Source of the DNA: Flavobacteriaceae bacterium
GTDB taxonomy: Bacteria > Bacteroidota > Bacteroidia > Flavobacteriales > Flavobacteriaceae
Assembly: GCA_016649715.1 (NCBI GenBank)
Contig: JAENXC010000003.1
Span: forward strand, 62,001 to 126,000
Length of the DNA stretch: 64,000 nt
Reading direction: 5' to 3'
The translations under genes were made by a program, and so were the position numbers. Every line of letters begins with the position of its first letter. Within the stretch, counting starts at the first letter, position 1. The notes under the pieces were generated by a model. That model searched no databases, was not told the origin of the DNA, and saw only the letters and a program-made list of their open reading frames with translations. Positions 2,814 through 62,038 of the stretch are shown here, piece by piece.

Positions 2814-3509
2814 CTATCTTCTTCCCATGAAAATGGAGATGAAATACAGCAAGGTGGCCAATGACCCAATTGCTGCAACTACATAGGTTCTGGCTGCCCA
2901 CTTTAGGGCGTCTTTTGCGCCGTCGTGTTCCTGTGGAGTAACCATTTTGCTGCTTTCCAGCCAAGCCAACGCTCTGTTGCTAGCGTCGTATTCAACCGGT
3001 AACGTAATAAAAGCAAAAACAGTTGTCGCTGCAAAAAGTAGAATTCCTATGAAAAATACAGTATTCCCCAAAACTCCCATGAAATTCATGGCAGTCATTA
3101 TTAAACCAGCCATAATCACAAAGTTGGACAACTTGCTGGCCACTCCCACAGCCGGAACGATAGCCGAACGCATTTTCAACCAACTGTAAGCTGTGGCGTG
3201 TTGCACGGCGTGACCACATTCGTGGGCTGCGACCGCGGCTGCGGCTGCGTTACGTTGCATATATACGCCTTCGCTTAAGTTTACTGTTTTGTTTGCTGGG
3301 TTGTAATGATCCGTCAACTGACCTGCAACTGAAATTACTTTCACATCGGCAATTCCATTGTCGGAGAGCATTTTTTCGGCAATTTCCTTCCCGCTCATTC
3401 CATTTTGAAGATGGACTTGGCTGTATTCTTTAAATTTGCTTTTCAGTTTGTTGCTTACTAACCAACTTACCAAAAAAATGAGACCTGCAATTATATAGTA
3501 TCCAAACAT
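2814..3509 (-). CDS. YugP-like zinc metallopeptidase, membrane-anchored
   Basis: This 231-residue protein starts with a membrane segment (residues 2-19) and carries the zinc-binding HECGH motif at 96-100 within AAHECGHAVQHA. Hydrophobic segments follow at about 125-145, 150-172 and 208-228. This layout matches the neutral zinc metallopeptidase_2 (YugP) family of about 225-230 residues, whose members are predicted membrane proteases of unknown substrate. The catalytic Glu and both His residues are present, so it should be active. It is a single gene, and its 3' end shares the bidirectional terminator with the convergent upstream gene. Confidence 0.88.
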   Translation of the reverse strand: MFGYYIIAGLIFLVSWLVSNKLKSKFKEYSQVHLQNGMSGKEIAEKMLSDNGIADVKVISVAGQLTDHYNPANKTVNLSEGVYMQRNAAAAAVAAHECGHAVQHATAYSWLKMRSAIVPAVGVASKLSNFVIMAGLIMTAMNFMGVLGNTVFFIGILLFAATTVFAFITLPVEYDASNRALAWLESSKMVTPQEHDGAKDALKWAARTYVVAAIGSLATLLYFISIFMGRR

Positions 3510-3540
3510 AGTTTTTATTGTTTATAGTTTGTTATTTTTC

Positions 3541-3604
3541 TCCGTGTCCTCCGTGCCTCTGTGGTGGATTAAGTTTACCACAGAGGCACGGAGAACACAG
3601 AGGT
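3541..3604. repeat. CTCTGTG/CACAGAG palindromic repeat
   Basis: A 17-bp perfect inverted repeat (CTCCGTGCCTCTGTGGT and its complement) is separated by about 12 bases, with extra CACAGAGG flanking sequence. It lies between the metallopeptidase start and the leuS stop. Related elements occur at 24626-24705 and 40611-40708. Confidence 0.8.
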
Positions 3605-3640
3605 TTTTCAATTACAATACAGCAAATAGTGTGCAAATTT

Positions 3641-6600
3641 TTAGCCTACAATATTCACGATTTTTCCGGGTACGATAATTACCTTTTTCGGCGTTCTCCC
3701 CTCTAAATACTGGGCTGTTTTCTCGTGTGCCATTACGGCAGATTCTATTTCTTCTTTGCTTAAATCCAATGGTAATTCCATCGTGAAACGCATTTTTCCG
3801 TTGAAGGAAATTGGATATTCCTTGCTGCTTTCCACCAAAAATTTCTGTTCAAATTTTGGGAAAGGTGCTGTGGAAATACTTTCCGAATGCCCCAATTTCT
3901 GCCAAAGTTCTTCCGAAATGTGCGGCGCATATGGCGAAATGAGAATTGCCAACGGCTCCAACACTTCCCGCGAATTACAGTTTTGTGCCGAAAGCTCGTT
4001 CACCGCAATCATAAAAGACGAAACCGAAGTATTGAAACTGAAATTCTCAATGTCTTCCTGCGTTTTTTTGATGGTTTTGTGTAATGTCTTCAGTCCCCCC
4101 TGCCCCCCAGAGGGGGGATTTTCGTCAACAAAAAAAGTTTCATCTGGACCGGAATGATACAATTTCCAAAGTTTTTTTAGGAAACCGTGCACGCCAGTAA
4201 TTCCAGCAGTGTTCCACGGTTTTGCCTGCTCCAGCGGCCCGAGAAACATTTCGTACATTCTTAAAGTATCGGCGCCGTATTGCTCACAAATATCATCTGG
4301 GTTTACCACGTTGTATTTGCTTTTGGACATTTTTTCTACTTCGCGGGAAACAAAAAATTTATTACCATTTTCATAATAATAAAGAGCCAATTTATTTGCA
4401 TTTCGCCACTCCAAAAATTTGTCAATATTTAACTTATCGACACCGTCAATCATATTAACATCAACAGGAATGGAAATATATTTAAATAACAAATGACCCT
4501 TTAAAACACTAATAATTTCAGATTTTGCTTCACCTTTTAATCTATTAGCAATTGGATTATTCTCTCCAAAAATATTAGTGAAACTTTCAGGAATATCATT
4601 AAGAATTTGGTCTATAATATTTTTCTCGATATTTTCATCTTTAAACCAATCTGTTGTTTCAGGCAGTAAATTTTTCGAATAGAAGCTCAACTTTACTTTT
4701 ATAGGATGAATTTTCGTTACATTATTTTCATTATAGGGAAGTCCCACAAGCAAGGTTTTAATTTTCGCACTCTCCCCCAAAATCATCCCCTGATTTATCA
4801 GCTTTTTAAAAGGTTCTTCCACATTTACAAAACCGCGGTCGTGCATAAATTTTACCCAAAAACGGCTGTACAATAAATGGCCGGTTGCGTGCTCGCTGCC
4901 GCCAATGTATAAATCCACGTTTTTCCAATAGTTCAACGCTTCTTTTGAGGCGAAAACTTCATCGCGCTTTTCATCTTCCATATATCGGAAAAAGTACCAA
5001 CTACTTCCCGCCCAACCCGGCATAGTATTCAATTCCAAAGGAAAAATATCCTCCCCCGACCCCTCCAAAGGAGGGGAGACGACCTCCTTATTTTTTTCGT
5101 TCCAATACCATTTTTCAGCGCGGCCCAAAGGCGGTTCGCCTTCTTCCGTTGGCAAATATTTTTCAACATCCGGAAGGCGCAATGGCAAACATTCGGTCGG
5201 GATAATTTGCGGCATTCCGTCTTTGTAATAAATCGGGAACGGCTCGCCCCAATACCGCTGCCGACTAAATACGGCATCGCGCAATCGGTAATTTATTTTC
5301 CCTTCGCCAACGCCTTTTTCCTCCAAAGCGGTAATTATTTTTTCGGTGGCTTCGGAATAGTTTAAATCATTTAAAAAGTCGCTGTTGGTAATAATTGTAT
5401 TTTCTTTATCGGAATAAGCTTCCTCAGAAATATCTGCATCCTTAAATATATTCGGGATGGGAAGATTGAAATGTTTTGCAAAATCATAATCGCGCTGGTC
5501 GCCACAGGGAACGCTCATTACAGCACCGGTTCCGTAGCCAGCCAAAACGTAATCGCCAATCCAAATTGGAATTTGTTTTCCGCTGAAAGGATGCTCGGCA
5601 TACGCGCCCGTGAAAACTCCGGTAATGGTTTTCACATCGGCCATTCGTTCGCGCTCGCTTCTTTTTGCGGTTGCTTCAATATAATTTTCAACGGCTTCTT
5701 TTTGCTCAGCAGTTGTGATTTTTGAAACCAAATCGTGCTCCGGCGCCAAAACCATAAAACTTACACCAAAAATAGTGTCGGGCCGAGTTGTAAATACAGG
5801 AATCGTCCCCCTTGCCCCCAAAGGGGGAATATCACTCTGCTCTATACTTTTTGAAATTGTATCTAAGACATTATCCAAGTTTCCAATCACTTCTTCATTG
5901 GTAAATCGAATAACCTTATATCCAAGTTCATTTAAAATTGAAGTTCTTTTTTCATCTTCTTCCTTTTGATTTCCGTGAATTTTTCCGTCAACTTCAATTA
6001 CAAATTTATTTGAGAGACAAACAAAATCAGCTATAAAATCATCTATTAAATGTTGCCTTCTAAATTTGCAACCTAATTTTTTGGACTTCAAATATTCCCA
6101 AAGTATGGCTTCTGCATCAGTTGAATTATTCCTCATATCCTTTGCTCTTTCCAACAATACACGTGAATTATTGCCTCCGGTCATATATCCCGGCCGAGTT
6201 CCTTCCCCTTTGGGGAAGGTTAGGATGGGGAAATTTACCGTTGCTCCCTTACTTCTTCCAATCCAGTTAGTCTGCGAATCCTTCAACGATTGCGGCCAAT
6301 CCAATTCGTTCAAGCCGTCCAATAAACGTTGGGCGTAAGCCGTGATTCGCATACTCCACTGTTTCATCTTTTTGCGGATTACGGGATAACCGCCGCGTTC
6401 GGAAACGCCGTTTATTATTTCGTCATTTGCCAAAACGGTACCCAATTGCGGGCACCAGTTTACTTCTGTTTCGGCCAAATATGTCAGTCTATATTTTAAA
6501 AGGATTTCCTGCTTTTTAATTTCTGAAAAATCAAGCCATTCAAAAGCCGTGAAATGTGTAATTCCTTCATCGCACACTGCGTTTAGGTGGATATTTCCTT

Positions 6601-7159
6601 CCGAAGAAAAAATTCCGCGAAGCTCTTCAATTGAACGGGCTTTGTTCAAATTTGCATCATACCAACTTTCAAAAAGCTGGATGAAAATCCACTGTGTCCA
6701 TTTATAATATTCGGGGTTTGAAGTGCGCACTTCGCGACTCCAATCGAATGAAAAACCTATTCTATCCAATTGTTTGCGATAACCCTCAATTTCATTTCCA
6801 TTCTTATCAACACCACCTTCAATATTCACTTTCGTGGTTTCAGCCGGATGTTGCCCCGTTTGGATTGCATATTGTTCAGCAGGCAAACCAAAAGAATCGT
6901 AGCCCATTGGATGCAAAACATTAAAACCTTGGTGTCGTTTGTAGCGCGCGTAAATATCACTGGCAATGTAGCCGAGCGGATGCCCAACGTGCAAGCCCGC
7001 ACCGGACGGATAGGGAAACATATCCAAAACGTAATATTTTGGTTTTTCACTCTTTCCTTTAACTTCGCTCAGGACAGGGTTTTCGGCCTTAAAAGTTTGG
7101 TTTTCGGCCCAATATTTCTGCCATTTGGCTTCAATATCGTTAAAATGATATTTGCTCAT
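3641..7159 (-). CDS. leuS: leucyl-tRNA synthetase with multiple in-frame insertions, including a DUF559 nuclease domain
   Basis: The enzyme charges tRNA-Leu with leucine in the cytosol and edits misacylated tRNA. The class I signature HVGH is at residues 57-60, the editing-domain TTRPDT at 457-462, the RDYDFA editing motif near 556-561, and KMSKS at 943-947. At 1172 residues it is about 220 longer than the 930-950 I expect for this lineage. The excess is a CCTGAGCG-type repeat (residues 27-36), a DUF559 domain with flanking palindromes (311-453), palindrome-encoded PPLEGSG (697-702) and PPSGGQGG (1015-1022), and a divergent insert before KMSKS (about 797-897). The frame is open throughout, and all catalytic motifs remain. 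It is an essential single-copy gene in most bacteria, so I infer the protein folds and works despite the insertions. It is divergent from ftsX. Confidence 0.95.
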   Translation of the reverse strand: MSKYHFNDIEAKWQKYWAENQTFKAENPVLSEVKGKSEKPKYYVLDMFPYPSGAGLHVGHPLGYIASDIYARYKRHQGFNVLHPMGYDSFGLPAEQYAIQTGQHPAETTKVNIEGGVDKNGNEIEGYRKQLDRIGFSFDWSREVRTSNPEYYKWTQWIFIQLFESWYDANLNKARSIEELRGIFSSEGNIHLNAVCDEGITHFTAFEWLDFSEIKKQEILLKYRLTYLAETEVNWCPQLGTVLANDEIINGVSERGGYPVIRKKMKQWSMRITAYAQRLLDGLNELDWPQSLKDSQTNWIGRSKGATVNFPILTFPKGEGTRPGYMTGGNNSRVLLERAKDMRNNSTDAEAILWEYLKSKKLGCKFRRQHLIDDFIADFVCLSNKFVIEVDGKIHGNQKEEDEKRTSILNELGYKVIRFTNEEVIGNLDNVLDTISKSIEQSDIPPLGARGTIPVFTTRPDTIFGVSFMVLAPEHDLVSKITTAEQKEAVENYIEATAKRSERERMADVKTITGVFTGAYAEHPFSGKQIPIWIGDYVLAGYGTGAVMSVPCGDQRDYDFAKHFNLPIPNIFKDADISEEAYSDKENTIITNSDFLNDLNYSEATEKIITALEEKGVGEGKINYRLRDAVFSRQRYWGEPFPIYYKDGMPQIIPTECLPLRLPDVEKYLPTEEGEPPLGRAEKWYWNEKNKEVVSPPLEGSGEDIFPLELNTMPGWAGSSWYFFRYMEDEKRDEVFASKEALNYWKNVDLYIGGSEHATGHLLYSRFWVKFMHDRGFVNVEEPFKKLINQGMILGESAKIKTLLVGLPYNENNVTKIHPIKVKLSFYSKNLLPETTDWFKDENIEKNIIDQILNDIPESFTNIFGENNPIANRLKGEAKSEIISVLKGHLLFKYISIPVDVNMIDGVDKLNIDKFLEWRNANKLALYYYENGNKFFVSREVEKMSKSKYNVVNPDDICEQYGADTLRMYEMFLGPLEQAKPWNTAGITGVHGFLKKLWKLYHSGPDETFFVDENPPSGGQGGLKTLHKTIKKTQEDIENFSFNTSVSSFMIAVNELSAQNCNSREVLEPLAILISPYAPHISEELWQKLGHSESISTAPFPKFEQKFLVESSKEYPISFNGKMRFTMELPLDLSKEEIESAVMAHEKTAQYLEGRTPKKVIIVPGKIVNIVG
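4091..4119. repeat. class A G/C palindrome inside leuS (copy 1)
   Basis: The stem CCCCCC-AGA-GGGGGG has a C-rich tail on one side. On the leuS strand it encodes ENPPSGGQGGLK (about residues 1013-1024), which looks like an unstructured linker in the tRNA-binding C-terminal part. The frame is kept. It is in the right-type orientation: on the leuS strand the tail follows the hairpin. Confidence 0.85.
4469..4771 (-). other. divergent insert in the LeuRS catalytic domain before KMSKS
   Basis: Residues about 797-897 of LeuRS (AKIKTLLVG onward to about SIPVD) replace what is normally a short stretch of roughly 25-30 residues between LINQGMI-G and the IHVDVN-type motif. The stretch is AT-rich, lysine- and asparagine-rich, has no palindrome and no recognised domain. 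It keeps the frame and is followed by normal LeuRS sequence (SREVEKMSKS). The comparison rests on my memory of the family, so the exact borders are approximate. Confidence 0.55.
5049..5080. repeat. class A G/C palindrome inside leuS (copy 2)
   Basis: The stem CCCCTCC-AAA-GGAGGGG has an adjoining C-rich tail (TCCTCCCCCGA). On the leuS strand it is in the right-type orientation and encodes VVSPPLEGSGED (about residues 693-704), inserted just before the conserved ELNTMPGWAGSSWY motif. The frame is kept. Confidence 0.85.
5801..6229 (-). mobile_element. DUF559 endonuclease cassette inserted in frame into the LeuRS editing domain
   Basis: LeuRS residues 311-453 interrupt the usual join between GRSKGATVNF and VFTTRPDT. 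The middle part (about 332-440) is a complete DUF559 domain, a Vsr-like PD-(D/E)XK nuclease fold. It has the N-terminal RNNSTDAEAILW helix with Glu350, CKFRRQH at 364-370, Asp378 in FIADF, the FVIEVDG core strand (Glu389, Asp391), and the C-terminal GYKVIRFT with Arg418. All expected acidic residues are present, so it could be catalytically active. It is bounded by inverted class A palindromes at 6201-6230 and 5804-5829. No intein splicing motifs are present, so the domain should remain in the mature protein. The mobile nature is inferred. Confidence 0.8.
5804..5829. repeat. class A palindrome, downstream border of the DUF559 cassette
   Basis: Stem CCCCC-AAA-GGGGG with the tail CGTCCCCCTTG. 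On the leuS strand it encodes DIPPLGARGT and lies in the opposite orientation to the copy at 6201-6230, with its tail pointing away from the nuclease. Confidence 0.85.
6201..6230. repeat. class A palindrome, upstream border of the DUF559 cassette
   Basis: Stem CCTTCCCC-TTT-GGGGAAGG followed by the tail TTAGGATGGGG. On the leuS strand it encodes PILTFPKGEGTRP. With the copy at 5804-5829 it forms an imperfect terminal inverted repeat around the nuclease domain. Confidence 0.85.
7057..7079. repeat. CCTGAGCG-type repeat inside the leuS N-terminus
   Basis: On the leuS strand this reads CCTGTCCTGAGCGAAGTTAA and onward and encodes NPVLSEVKGK at residues 27-36, between TFKAE and the conserved KPKYYVLDMFPYPSG. 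It is clearly related to the intergenic copy after ahcY (29015-29039, CCCTGAGCGCAGTCGAAGGG). Confidence 0.75.
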
Positions 7160-7400
7160 TATAATTATTTCAGGTAAAAAAAGAACTCCTACGCTGAAGC
7201 TTCGGAGATTGCGGACAAATTTACTGCTATTGTACGAAATGCCATTAACATTTTTAGAAAGTATGCTAAATTACAAATCGGGCATTCCGTCTTTCCTTTT
7301 AAAAAAAATAACGAATAAAGACGAAAGTCAAAACTTTAAACGTTGTTTAGTGCAAGATGCAAAATTACTTGTATTTTTACCACAAAATTCTCCAATTCCT

Positions 7401-11506: not shown

Positions 11507-11854
11507 TTATTTCAGAATAGTAACTTTTTTGGGATTCGCTGAACTTCCAGCCGCAACCGCCTTTAAAGTTTGGTTGTATTGTTGGGCAAGTTCAGGATCC
11601 GTATTTTTTTCTTCCGAAAATAATTTTTGAAACCAAGACAACGCTTTTCCGTATTCACTTTTGAAGTAATATGCCGTTGCCAATTTTTTATAAATGAAAG
11701 GAGTTCCGTAGCCTTCCTCTACCACTTGTTCGTAAACCCGAACTACATCAATATCTTTATTAACGTCAGTTTTGTGCGGACTTGTTTGTGAAAAAGAAAA
11801 GGTTGAAATACTTGCGAATAGCAAAAAGGCCAGCAGGTTTTGCTTAGTAATCAT
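11507..11854 (-). CDS. small secreted TPR-like protein, paralogue 1
   Basis: This 115-residue protein has a cleavable signal peptide (about 1-22, ending FSFSQ). It has a single tetratricopeptide-like unit (TPFIYKKLATAYYFKSEYGKALSWFQKLF). It resembles the N-terminal TPR segment of longer Bacteroidota OmpA-family proteins of the gliding/T9SS type, but has no OmpA domain. It is about 60 percent identical by eye to the next gene, pointing to tandem duplication. The function is unknown. Confidence 0.7.
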   Translation of the reverse strand: MITKQNLLAFLLFASISTFSFSQTSPHKTDVNKDIDVVRVYEQVVEEGYGTPFIYKKLATAYYFKSEYGKALSWFQKLFSEEKNTDPELAQQYNQTLKAVAAGSSANPKKVTILK

Positions 11855-12016: not shown

Positions 12017-12352
12017 CTAAATTTTAACTACAGCGTCAGAAGTTTTGCTTGCCTTAACAGCTTTTAGTGTTTGTTGATAGCGCTGGGCAATTTCAGGATC
12101 TGCGTTTTTTTCGGCTTCGGAAAGCTTTTCGAACCAGATCAAAGCATTCTTGTATTCATTTCTGAAATAATACGCATTCGCCAAATTTTTGTAAATAAAT
12201 GGCGTGCCGTAGCCTTCTTGGACCACTTGTTCGTACGCGCGGACCACATCAATATCTTTATTGACGTCGGTTTTAGTGCTAGTTTGGGAAAAGGAAACGG
12301 TGCTAATTCCTGCAAATAGCAGAAACGCAAGTAGGTTGGACTTGAATTTCAT
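12017..12352 (-). CDS. small secreted TPR-like protein, paralogue 2
   Basis: This 111-residue protein has a signal peptide and the same TDVNKDIDVVR-YEQVV-EGYGTPFIYK core and TPR helix pair as its neighbour at 11507-11854. The two lie head to tail with a 162-base gap, in which I see no further gene. The C-termini differ (KTSDAVVKI here, SANPKKVTILK in the other). The most likely role is a periplasmic scaffold or a remnant of an OmpA-type protein. I cannot name the function. Confidence 0.7.
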   Translation of the reverse strand: MKFKSNLLAFLLFAGISTVSFSQTSTKTDVNKDIDVVRAYEQVVQEGYGTPFIYKNLANAYYFRNEYKNALIWFEKLSEAEKNADPEIAQRYQQTLKAVKASKTSDAVVKI

Positions 12353-24625: not shown

Positions 24626-24705
24626 CTGTGTTTTGTCTCTGCGAAACTCTGTGTAATAGCTATAACGCAGAGTTGCACAGAGAACCGCAGAGGTTCACGG
24701 AGAGT
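24626..24705. repeat. CTCTGTG/CACAGAG intergenic repeat reaching into a stop codon
   Basis: An imperfect inverted repeat is built from CTCTGTG, CTCTGCG and CACAGAG words. The core 24636-24681 is nearly identical to 40639-40685. Its right end contains the last codons and the TGA stop of the NadR-like gene (stop at 24695). Confidence 0.85.
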
Positions 24706-29014: not shown

Positions 29015-29039
29015 GTCACCCTGAGCGCAGTCGAAGGGA
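29015..29039. repeat. CCTGAGCG-type repeat after ahcY
   Basis: GTCACCCTGAGCGCAGTCGA with GGGA following forms a partly palindromic unit (CCCT..AGGG). It is the intergenic relative of the copy inside leuS at 7057-7079. Confidence 0.7.
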
Positions 29040-29083: not shown

Positions 29084-29134
29084 TGTGAAAAATAGTTAAC
29101 TTTTACCAAGCTTAGATTATTCTAAATTTATTTG

Positions 29135-29608
29135 ATGATGGCTTATGAGGAAGAAAAAATAAAAGTCCCAAGATTTAACGAAGAATCCGGCTTCTATACC
29201 ACAAAAAAACGCTCAAAAATGATGAGCAAAATTCGTGGTAAGAATACGAAGCCAGAACTACTCTTCCAAAAAGCACTTTGGAAAAAAGGCATTCGTTATC
29301 GCGTTGACAACAAAAAACTTCCTGGAAAACCTGATGTTTCCATTCAAAAATACAAACTTGCCATTTTTATTGATGGCGAATTTTGGCACGGTTACAATTG
29401 GCCAGAACGGAAAGAAACTTTAAAAAGCAATAGAGGTTTTTGGATTCCAAAGATTGAGCGGAATATGCAGCGAGATTGCGAAGTTATCAACCAATTAGAA
29501 GAAATGGGCTATACCGTTTTTCGTTTTTGGACGAATGAAATAAAGACTAACTTAGACAGGTGCATCAAGGATATATTGGTTTATATAAATACTGGACAAA
29601 ATGATTAA
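29135..29608 (+). CDS. vsr: very short patch repair (Vsr) endonuclease
   Basis: Vsr nicks DNA 5' of a T:G mismatch made by deamination of 5-methylcytosine. The roughly 157-residue protein has the family N-terminus KRSKMMSKIRGKNTKPE, LPGKPDVSIQKYKLAIFIDGEFWHG with the catalytic Asp, and the C-terminal WIPKIERNMQRD and GYTVFRFWTNEI. Start is ATG 29135 or 29138. Vsr normally sits beside a cytosine methyltransferase, but none is within the window. It overlaps the aminotransferase start by 8 bases, an odd placement in a metabolic group, and it may have been acquired. Confidence 0.93.
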   Translation: MMAYEEEKIKVPRFNEESGFYTTKKRSKMMSKIRGKNTKPELLFQKALWKKGIRYRVDNKKLPGKPDVSIQKYKLAIFIDGEFWHGYNWPERKETLKSNRGFWIPKIERNMQRDCEVINQLEEMGYTVFRFWTNEIKTNLDRCIKDILVYINTGQND

Positions 29609-34016: not shown

Positions 34017-34904
34017 ATGAGTACTGAAAACGAAAACAATAGTGGCAAATTCAAGATCCTTATTGGGGTTCTCTCGGTTTTGCTTATTGCCCTGGCGGTT
34101 TATACCGTAACCTTGTTCAACGACAATAAATCTACGATTTCCAGTCTGGAAACGCAAAAAGCAGATATTGAACAGGAACTAGAAGGTTTGATTGCCAATT
34201 ATGACGAAGTAATCAAGGATAACGAATTGAAAGACAAAGATCTGCTCGCTGCGCGGGAAAGAATCACTGTGCTTCTGGATTCGGTAAAAGATGCGGAAGC
34301 AAATGTTGGATTAATCAACAGGTATAAAATTGAAATAGGCAAACTAAAGAATGAACGCATTATGCTTTTCAAACGTGCCGATAGCTTAATAGCTGCCAAC
34401 AGGCAACTTGCCAACGAGCGCGACAGCACTTCCACAGAACTTGCCAACACCCGAATGGTCGTAGATTCCGTTAGCCAAGAAAATATGTCGATGAACGAAA
34501 CTATCAAAAAAGGTTCCGTTGTTAAAGCTACAGACCTTCGTGGGGAAGCCGTTATCATCAGAAACAATGGAAAGGTAGTCGACACAAAACGCTCAAGCCG
34601 AGCAGATAAAATTAGAGCATGTTTTACTTTAACTCCAAATGCAATCGCTCAAAAGGGCGATAGGATTCTTTACGTACAAATCATAAACCCAAAAGGTAAA
34701 ATGATGGGCGACAATACCGTGAAACAATTTGAGGATAAAAACCTGAATTACAGCGCATCAACAAATGTTTTTTATGAAAATGACGAACTGGATGTTTGTA
34801 TTCTCGTAAACGCTTCAGAAGCCAATCTTGTTGAAGGAAGATATACCATCAATCTTTTTGATGGCCCCAACCAAATTGCCACAAGCACAATGGAACTCAA
34901 GTAG
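34017..34904 (+). CDS. coiled-coil membrane-anchored protein, conserved hypothetical
   Basis: This 295-residue protein from ATG 34017 has a short cytoplasmic N-terminus, one membrane segment (about 12-32), a coiled coil from about 40 to 170 with many KLKNER and ERITVLL heptads, and a C-terminal beta domain (about 180-295) with the strands RILYVQIINPKGKMMG and ASEANLVEGRYTINLFDGPN. The layout suggests a periplasmic scaffold or sensor. I do not recognise a named family. Its TAG stop abuts the class A palindrome element at 34904-35014. Confidence 0.65.
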   Translation: MSTENENNSGKFKILIGVLSVLLIALAVYTVTLFNDNKSTISSLETQKADIEQELEGLIANYDEVIKDNELKDKDLLAARERITVLLDSVKDAEANVGLINRYKIEIGKLKNERIMLFKRADSLIAANRQLANERDSTSTELANTRMVVDSVSQENMSMNETIKKGSVVKATDLRGEAVIIRNNGKVVDTKRSSRADKIRACFTLTPNAIAQKGDRILYVQIINPKGKMMGDNTVKQFEDKNLNYSASTNVFYENDELDVCILVNASEANLVEGRYTINLFDGPNQIATSTMELK

Positions 34905-35014
34905 TCCCACTGCCCCCAAAGGGGAATCAAATTATCTTGAAAAACCATTGCACTAAGTGCAATGGTTTTTTTCTTTGGAAAAAACAGCCTCCCCCTTTGG
35001 GGGTTGGGGGGACT
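34904..35014. mobile_element. miniature element with inverted class A palindromes around a hairpin
   Basis: A left arm GTCCCACTGCCCCCAAAGGG (34904-34927) and a right arm CCCCCTTTGGGGGTTGGGGG (34988-35014) are inverted copies of the class A palindrome with tails pointing outward, just as around the DUF559 cassette in leuS. Between them lies a near-perfect hairpin (34940-34972). No coding region is inside. It resembles a non-autonomous MITE-like copy. That interpretation is inferred. Confidence 0.6.
34940..34972 (+). terminator. intrinsic terminator
   Basis: AAAACCATTGCACT-AAG-TGCAATGGTTTTTTT: a perfect GC-containing stem with a T-tract, 36 bases after the stop at 34904. Confidence 0.85.
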
Positions 35015-40610: not shown

Positions 40611-40708
40611 CGCAAACCCTCTGTGTAACTCCGTGGTTCTCTGCGAAACTCTGTGAAATAGATATAACGCAGAGTTGCACAGAGAAATACACAGAGAACC
40701 GCAGAGAA
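40611..40708. repeat. CTCTGTG/CACAGAG intergenic repeat
   Basis: An imperfect inverted repeat of CTCTGTG, CTCTGCG and CACAGAG words sits immediately before xth. The core 40639-40685 is almost identical to 24636-24681. The third, shorter relative is at 3541-3604. Confidence 0.85.
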
Positions 40709-61969: not shown

Positions 61970-62038
61970 AATATTAATACGAAGCACTTTTTAAAAAAAT
62001 ACCTTTTATATATTTTCAGTAAATTACAAATATTTGTT

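Follow-up and report, generated by a model that had tools for sequence, protein, structure and literature searches.

The leucyl-tRNA synthetase gene (leuS) of a Flavobacteriaceae bacterium (assembly GCA_016649715.1) contains a complete DUF559 nuclease domain within its reading frame. The gene lies in the 64,000-nucleotide stretch of contig JAENXC010000003.1 analysed here (positions 62,001 to 126,000), referred to below as the window. The synthetase (LeuRS) is encoded by a single uninterrupted open reading frame that passes the equivalog cut-off of leuS_bact despite the insert, its score being split over several stretches, and LeuRS models match on either side of the nuclease (Table 1). By inference, the genus is Aequorivita, since a sequence named Aequorivita todarodis (L256) is identical over 3,500 bases to L007 of G023, a genome of the same genus; loci and genomes are given throughout as L and G numbers.

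A DUF559 nuclease within LeuRS

The insert, about 430 bp including the nuclease domain, separates two strands of the editing domain, and comparison with unfilled leuS genes approximately bears out the extent that an earlier reading of the letters alone (the sequence-only reading) had given it. PF04480 matches residues 336-439 at E 2.9e-34 (117.6 bits against a curated cut-off of 20.6), and the domain has the fold and the conserved acidic active-site residues of a DUF559 or Vsr-like nuclease. The five residues singled out in the sequence-only reading are all present and nearly invariant across 117 aligned DUF559 domains (E350 100%, D378 100%, E389 99%, D391 98%, R418 96%), a conservation that shows purifying selection on the nuclease. 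The insert core has a GC content of 0.294 compared with 0.41-0.42 for the host gene. In the structure model the fold of the host editing domain is kept around the insert, with 183 residues superimposing at 1.3 A on 4k47, and the nuclease is placed at the tip of a hairpin, hanging on two low-confidence linkers (residues 316-328 and 443-449), which supports the earlier proposal of a surface hairpin.

An intein or intron as the housing of the nuclease was rejected. As the sequence-only reading had held, there is no sign of an intein: no intein or Hint splicing family was matched in a Pfam scan at E <= 0.01, nor any intron family in Rfam at E <= 1 over window positions 3500-7400. The 10 Rfam rows that did appear there at that threshold are all below the gathering score; one is a long non-coding RNA family at 6077-6181, one is whalefall-1 on the palindrome at 5048, and eight fall on a near-perfect inverted repeat, CTCCGTG...CACGGAG, at 3540-3602 just downstream of leuS. 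A separate nuclease made from an internal start was judged unlikely, the Met of the YMTGG motif before the domain being Leu, Glu, Arg, Gln or His in other copies.

Several features went unremarked in the sequence-only reading: palindromes at both ends of the insert, the low-GC core, and two further in-frame palindromes in leuS that lack a nuclease. The one at 5048-5077 occupies a loop that does hold DUF559 in the LeuRS of Nonlabens antarcticus (L281) and Ilyomonas limi (L239). The folding energies of the single boundary palindromes are unremarkable against shuffled sequences (z -1.2 to -1.3). The tripartite form CCCCCNNNGGGGGNNNGGGGG occurs in 24 exact copies in the genome and the same pattern read backwards in none; two copies are inside leuS and most others, by inspection, lie outside long frames or at their ends. 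Elsewhere in LeuRS, the N-terminal peptide VLSEVKGKSEK (window 7043-7075, minus strand) is mostly missing in L013 and L019 and may be another in-frame repeat.

Table 1. Features of leuS, its insert and the related palindromes in the window
Feature	Position	Strand	Basis
leuS, leucyl-tRNA synthetase, host of the element	3641..7159	-	uninterrupted frame of 1172 aa; 894 bits on the leuS_bact equivalog model (cut-off 548)
Entire insert between two strands of the editing domain, about residues 311-453 of LeuRS	5801..6229	-	compared with 20 unfilled genes of the same genus
DUF559 / Vsr-like nuclease domain, residues 337-438; E350, D378, E389, D391, H395	5846..6151	-	Pfam, conservation, fold
5' tether of nuclease, residues 316-328	6176..6214	-	structure model, confidence under 50
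3' tether of nuclease, residues 443-449	5813..5833	-	structure model, confidence under 50
5' boundary palindrome CCTTCCCC-AAA-GGGGAAGG	6201..6219	-	sequence; folding z of only -1.3 relative to shuffled sequences
3' boundary palindrome CCCCC-TTT-GGGGG plus third block GGGGG; dispersed family, 24 exact copies in genome	5805..5828	-	sequence
Second in-frame leuS palindrome, nuclease-less; peptide SPPLEGSGED, loop before PLELNTMPG	5048..5077	-	sequence
Third in-frame leuS palindrome, nuclease-less; peptide PPSGGQGG	4094..4117	-	sequence
Two inverted copies of the same palindrome without a nuclease, lying for the most part between two frames (like a miniature inverted-repeat transposable element)	34904..35013	+	sequence; fold z -5.5

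Filled, empty and scarred sites

Within the genus, DUF559 is present at the leuS site in 8 of 28 genomes and absent from the other 20, so the empty-site relatives that the sequence-only reading called for do exist. Two other genes have the same patchy occupation of a single site, with empty alleles in relatives, that characterises homing elements. For recG, 6 of 27 genomes are filled and 16 have a clean empty site (LWHKN[ED]YPPH); four (L364, L368, L371, L381) keep only residues that we read as a scar, one of them (L381, in G004) with an in-frame stop as well, and L382 holds another short sequence. For metH, 2 of 22 genomes are filled, 15 are clean, one locus is partial, and four (L393, L394, L396, L408) hold two inverted palindromes with no nuclease between them. 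In a family sample of 199 genomes, the leuS insert was found without a stop in 15 and broken in one; when insert-free LeuRS was searched over the same genomes, the matches listed were mostly unbroken across the site. An assembly chimera is excluded, because an insert of the same kind occupies the same leuS site in 8 of the 28 genus genomes, including the single-contig G005 and G009.

The unfilled leuS sites do not all look original. Some hold short peptides that look like translated dispersed repeats: NVTLGSVEGS and SSAVEK, which fill the hairpin in L107, L109, L014 and L018, resemble the translation of a repeat, GTCACCCTGAGCGCAGTCGAAGG, at window 29015-29037 (plus strand). Among the unfilled relatives in L012-L030 and L093-L121, several unrelated repeat-like peptides (KIQNSEFKI, MSYELGVGETSSHIPHPSSLEI, IASEAKQS) stand there, and the hairpin looks like a hot spot.

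Filled and unfilled states are close to randomly scattered over the LeuRS hosts. On a quickly built tree with 22 filled and 47 unfilled hosts, 69 in all (the 28 unfilled ones from outside the genus being the best-scoring and not a random sample; L118 was dropped as unreadable and G014 was not used) the state requires 16 changes, at least 9 of them forced by starred branches, compared with an average of 18.9 for shuffled labels, and 38 of 500 shuffles need as few as observed. Two insert lineages share the one leuS site within the genus: the window and G008 are 91% identical in the leuS flanks and only 55% in the inserts. Among 21 filled leuS genes (L179, with its long branch, was excluded), each alignment rejects the topology of the other: in the approximately unbiased (AU) test, p-AU is 2.3e-6 for the host topology on the insert alignment and 4e-54 for the insert topology on the host alignment. 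This conflict, combined with the empty sites, supports the earlier suggestion of invasion by a mobile nuclease gene that could enter without stopping translation.

In a tree of 117 DUF559 domains, the copies from leuS (22), recG (9), metH (6) and hisD (1) form one clade (99/91), whereas hemD-linked copies form a separate one. The metH copies are a clade (100/99), as are the recG copies (100/98), and in the best tree both are placed among the leuS copies (fork 95/71; metH with one leuS copy 97/86).

Other host genes and the distribution of palindromes

Embedding of DUF559, which the sequence-only reading had treated as an isolated case, recurs elsewhere. Of 101 DUF559 matches in the family sample, 33 are inside open frames of at least 346 codons. 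A set drawn from genus and family (119 rows, of which two are fragments of the broken copy L180, and a subset of all DUF559 matches) contains 72 free-standing copies among 117 unbroken ones. When 84,980 species were scanned, each represented by one genome, 68 of the best 80 loci lay in open frames of at least 300 codons, some cut by contig ends, a share that is biased because the query was an alignment of embedded copies. DUF559 is found at E <= 1e-20 in 159 of 395 Bacteroidota genomes.

By motif, the main hosts of these 68 loci are the leuS hairpin (25), recG (12), ileS (4), a recB-like gene (3) and gmk (3), followed by the first and second metH sites, the second leuS loop, valS, recJ and ispF with two each; rlmB, hisD, an ABC-F gene, a Type ISP gene and acs are represented once, and four loci (L246, L261, L266, L269) have no assigned host. 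Profile scans of 19 of the reading frames, 16 of them from the best 80 loci, gave IleRS, ValRS, MetH, RecJ, acetate-CoA ligase, RecB-like, Gmk, IspF, RlmB and ABC-F in a first group and RecG, MetH, HemD, HisD, a PALP enzyme, LeuRS twice, Type ISP and Gmk in a second, the scores for RecB-like L227 and RlmB L238 being below the curated cut-off. The cases at the end of a gene (gmk, ispF, rlmB, hemD, hisD and the PALP enzyme) may be adjacent genes read through rather than true fusions, and L279, a leuS case labelled Paceibacterota, may be a binning error.

Carriage by plasmids, phages or viruses was considered and rejected. Matches at E <= 1e-15 occur in 24 of 72,556 plasmid records, all under 60% identity, and 3 of 50,697 phage records match at 32-39%; the closest of 72 loci on viral contigs, L286, has the motif of a ValRS fusion and probably stems from the host.

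Strong hairpins (score >= 21) are concentrated around DUF559. In the genus and family set of 117 rows, two of them pieces of one broken copy, they stand in 33% of the flanks on each side (5' and 3'), compared with 2.0% of 1,145 control windows from the same loci, and on both flanks in 22% against 0.04% expected. A second set of 67 embedded copies, which partly overlaps the first, gave 30%, 39% and 21% (5', 3' and both) against 1.4% of 728 controls, and 67%, 61% and 48% against 3.9% at a threshold of 19, which was added after the data were seen. The second set also includes 10 free-standing copies, with score-21 hairpins in 0% (5') and 10% (3') of flanks. Three-base hairpin loops of embedded copies are A-rich on the 5' side and T-rich on the 3' side (27:3 and 2:27; 49:2 and 6:42 in the second set), an opposite polarity that would be expected of inverted ends. 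The two flanks of one copy resemble each other over 115 copies (24.7 vs 18.1; 26.2 vs 19.1 for free-standing copies), and free-standing subfamilies have, by inspection, their own palindrome types.

Across the 28 genus genomes, the copy number of CCCCCNNNGGGGGNNNGGGGG has a Spearman correlation of 0.74 with embedded DUF559 copies, 0.10 with Y1 transposase matches and 0.05 with free-standing DUF559, from counts entered by hand and uncorrected for kinship. After subtraction of two copies per embedded element, the median is 8 in 13 carriers and 1 in 15 others (p 1.5e-4, or 2.5e-4 without three incomplete genomes).

A candidate mobile element

We think it probable, though well short of certain, that the insert is a single copy of a selfish DNA element in which two inverted, GC-rich palindromes flank a Vsr-like (DUF559) nuclease, and which inserts in frame into loops of core genes. 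At the level of sequence, the comparisons show the structure of the insert, empty sites, scar-like and nuclease-less versions and a conflict between insert and host trees. They also show that the host genes are several and unrelated, that the catalytic residues are conserved, and that the number of dispersed palindromes rises with that of embedded nucleases. Sitting in frame, the element would be expressed with its host gene. An active nuclease would then cut alleles without the element, or its own palindromes, and recombinational repair would copy the element across; we infer such homing-like spread within a site from the patchiness, the tree conflict and the kinship to a homing endonuclease. 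The nested host clades suggest that the palindrome-ended unit would occasionally move to a new gene, and loss of the element could leave an in-frame palindrome as a scar. Residence in frame may mean that the nuclease is expressed and meets a conserved target, and a host gene from which the element was lost imprecisely would be disrupted. More tentatively, and at somewhat less than even chances, the elements would constitute a new class across Bacteroidota, palindrome-ended, mobilised by their own DUF559 nuclease and lodged in frame in aminoacyl-tRNA synthetases, methionine synthase, recombination enzymes and other proteins without splicing, that also mobilises nuclease-less palindromes of the same family.

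Several points weigh against this interpretation. Neither cleavage nor a target site nor movement was observed, and the tree conflict could stem from recombination of leuS segments without any action of the nuclease. The 117-domain tree has only 105 columns and 40 of its 114 inner branches are unresolved; its best version splits the leuS copies, yet grouping them in a single clade is not rejected (AU p 0.343). Site comparison in recG and metH of the genus defined no target-site duplication. The two ends of leuS inserts (21.2 vs 21.4) and recG inserts (17.4 vs 19.1) resemble each other no more when taken from one locus than when taken from different loci, and therefore matched ends cannot be claimed there. 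Free-standing copies have no bias in loop polarity (8:7 and 13:12), and the polarity of embedded copies may partly reflect reading-frame constraint. Kinship may bear on the palindrome correlation given above, and G026 has 16 palindrome copies and no embedded nuclease, with a recG scar and a two-palindrome metH present.

The palindromes might instead be spread by other machinery, such as Y1/RAYT transposases or general recombination, with the nuclease hitch-hiking between two copies. We regard this as unlikely, if the most serious of the alternatives: palindromes without a nuclease do occur at many places, inverted pairs included, and 16 of the 28 genus genomes have Y1 transposase matches, but palindrome number tracks embedded DUF559 and not Y1, five genomes (G003, G011, G012, G016, G026) have 6-16 palindrome copies and no Y1 match, and the nuclease is under purifying selection. 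That the fusion is useful to LeuRS and the other hosts, for defence, RNA cleavage or repair tied to the enzyme, seems improbable given that some ten unrelated genes, aminoacyl-tRNA synthetases, recJ and acs among them, carry internal insertions, that presence is patchy between close species, and that scar-like and nuclease-less versions stand at the same sites. About as improbable is a single old entry into leuS followed by vertical inheritance and repeated losses with no recent movement. The same site is filled in many genera, a single leuS clade is not rejected, and insert and host identity correlate (r 0.42), but the insert data reject the host topology, the inserts of the window and G008 differ far more than their flanks, and the best tree has metH and recG copies among those of leuS. 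An assembly or annotation artefact has a negligible chance, the window's genome being a draft in 71 contigs but the same architecture recurring in independent assemblies, some of one contig, with the nuclease under purifying selection.

The element that we propose has points in common with several known systems. The nuclease belongs to the same enzyme family as the EDxHD (Vsr-like) homing endonucleases, of which I-Bth0305I (structure 3r3p) is named a mobile intron protein. The accepted view is that homing endonucleases maintain themselves in essential genes mainly inside introns or inteins. In place of an intron, intein or free-standing housing, the nuclease here lies in frame in leuS, where it appears to stay in the host protein, bounded by palindromes, and it would thus persist in essential genes by occupying loops that tolerate an extra domain. 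Repetitive extragenic palindromic (REP) sequences and their RAYT (Y1) transposases likewise link short palindromes scattered through a genome with the gene of an enzyme that processes DNA. Here, however, the flanked gene is a Vsr-like DUF559 nuclease and not HUH/Y1, palindrome number is independent of Y1 matches, and some copies stand within coding frames. Vsr and free-standing DUF559 nucleases such as VsrA have the same domain, but the leuS, recG, metH and hisD copies form their own clade and embedded copies have opposite loop polarity at their two ends.

To our knowledge, Rickettsia palindromic elements have no enzyme of their own, and we know of no settled mobiliser for them; the element described here would offer a candidate for the enzyme that spreads in-frame palindromic repeats. 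The Rickettsia elements are palindromic DNA of about 150 bp that is inserted in frame in unrelated genes and encodes a conserved peptide (PMC10969869). In-frame palindromic insertion into unrelated genes is common to both, and the element here is set apart by its length of about 430 bp, its nuclease and its Bacteroidota hosts. Among the titles and abstract openings listed by searches of open-licence literature, none mentioned in-frame DUF559 insertion or an association of DUF559 with palindromes. Annotators of Bacteroidota should be aware that unusual length in a LeuRS, IleRS, ValRS, MetH or RecG may point to a parasite inside the protein and not to a new function.

Further DUF559 domains were seen beside palindrome-like peptides inside HsdR-like Type I restriction proteins (L427 and L432, by motif) and Type ISP enzymes (L242 by Pfam, L418 by motif). 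The second DUF559 copy of the window's genome (L002, G000:C56:9074-12391) is free-standing and flanked by CCCCAACCCTAAAGGG repeats, with genes resembling cysD and cysN, one on each side. In the window, positions 29132-29608 (plus strand) hold a gene that we take to resemble a true Vsr, with only a weak C-terminal DUF559 match; in G003, G005 and G008, too, such a gene is on the leuS contig, some 25-32 kb away from leuS. The window also contains a 49-nt repeat in two copies 96% identical (24636-24684 and 40638-40686) and a 149-nt direct repeat, 78% identical, at 11625-11773 and 12126-12274.
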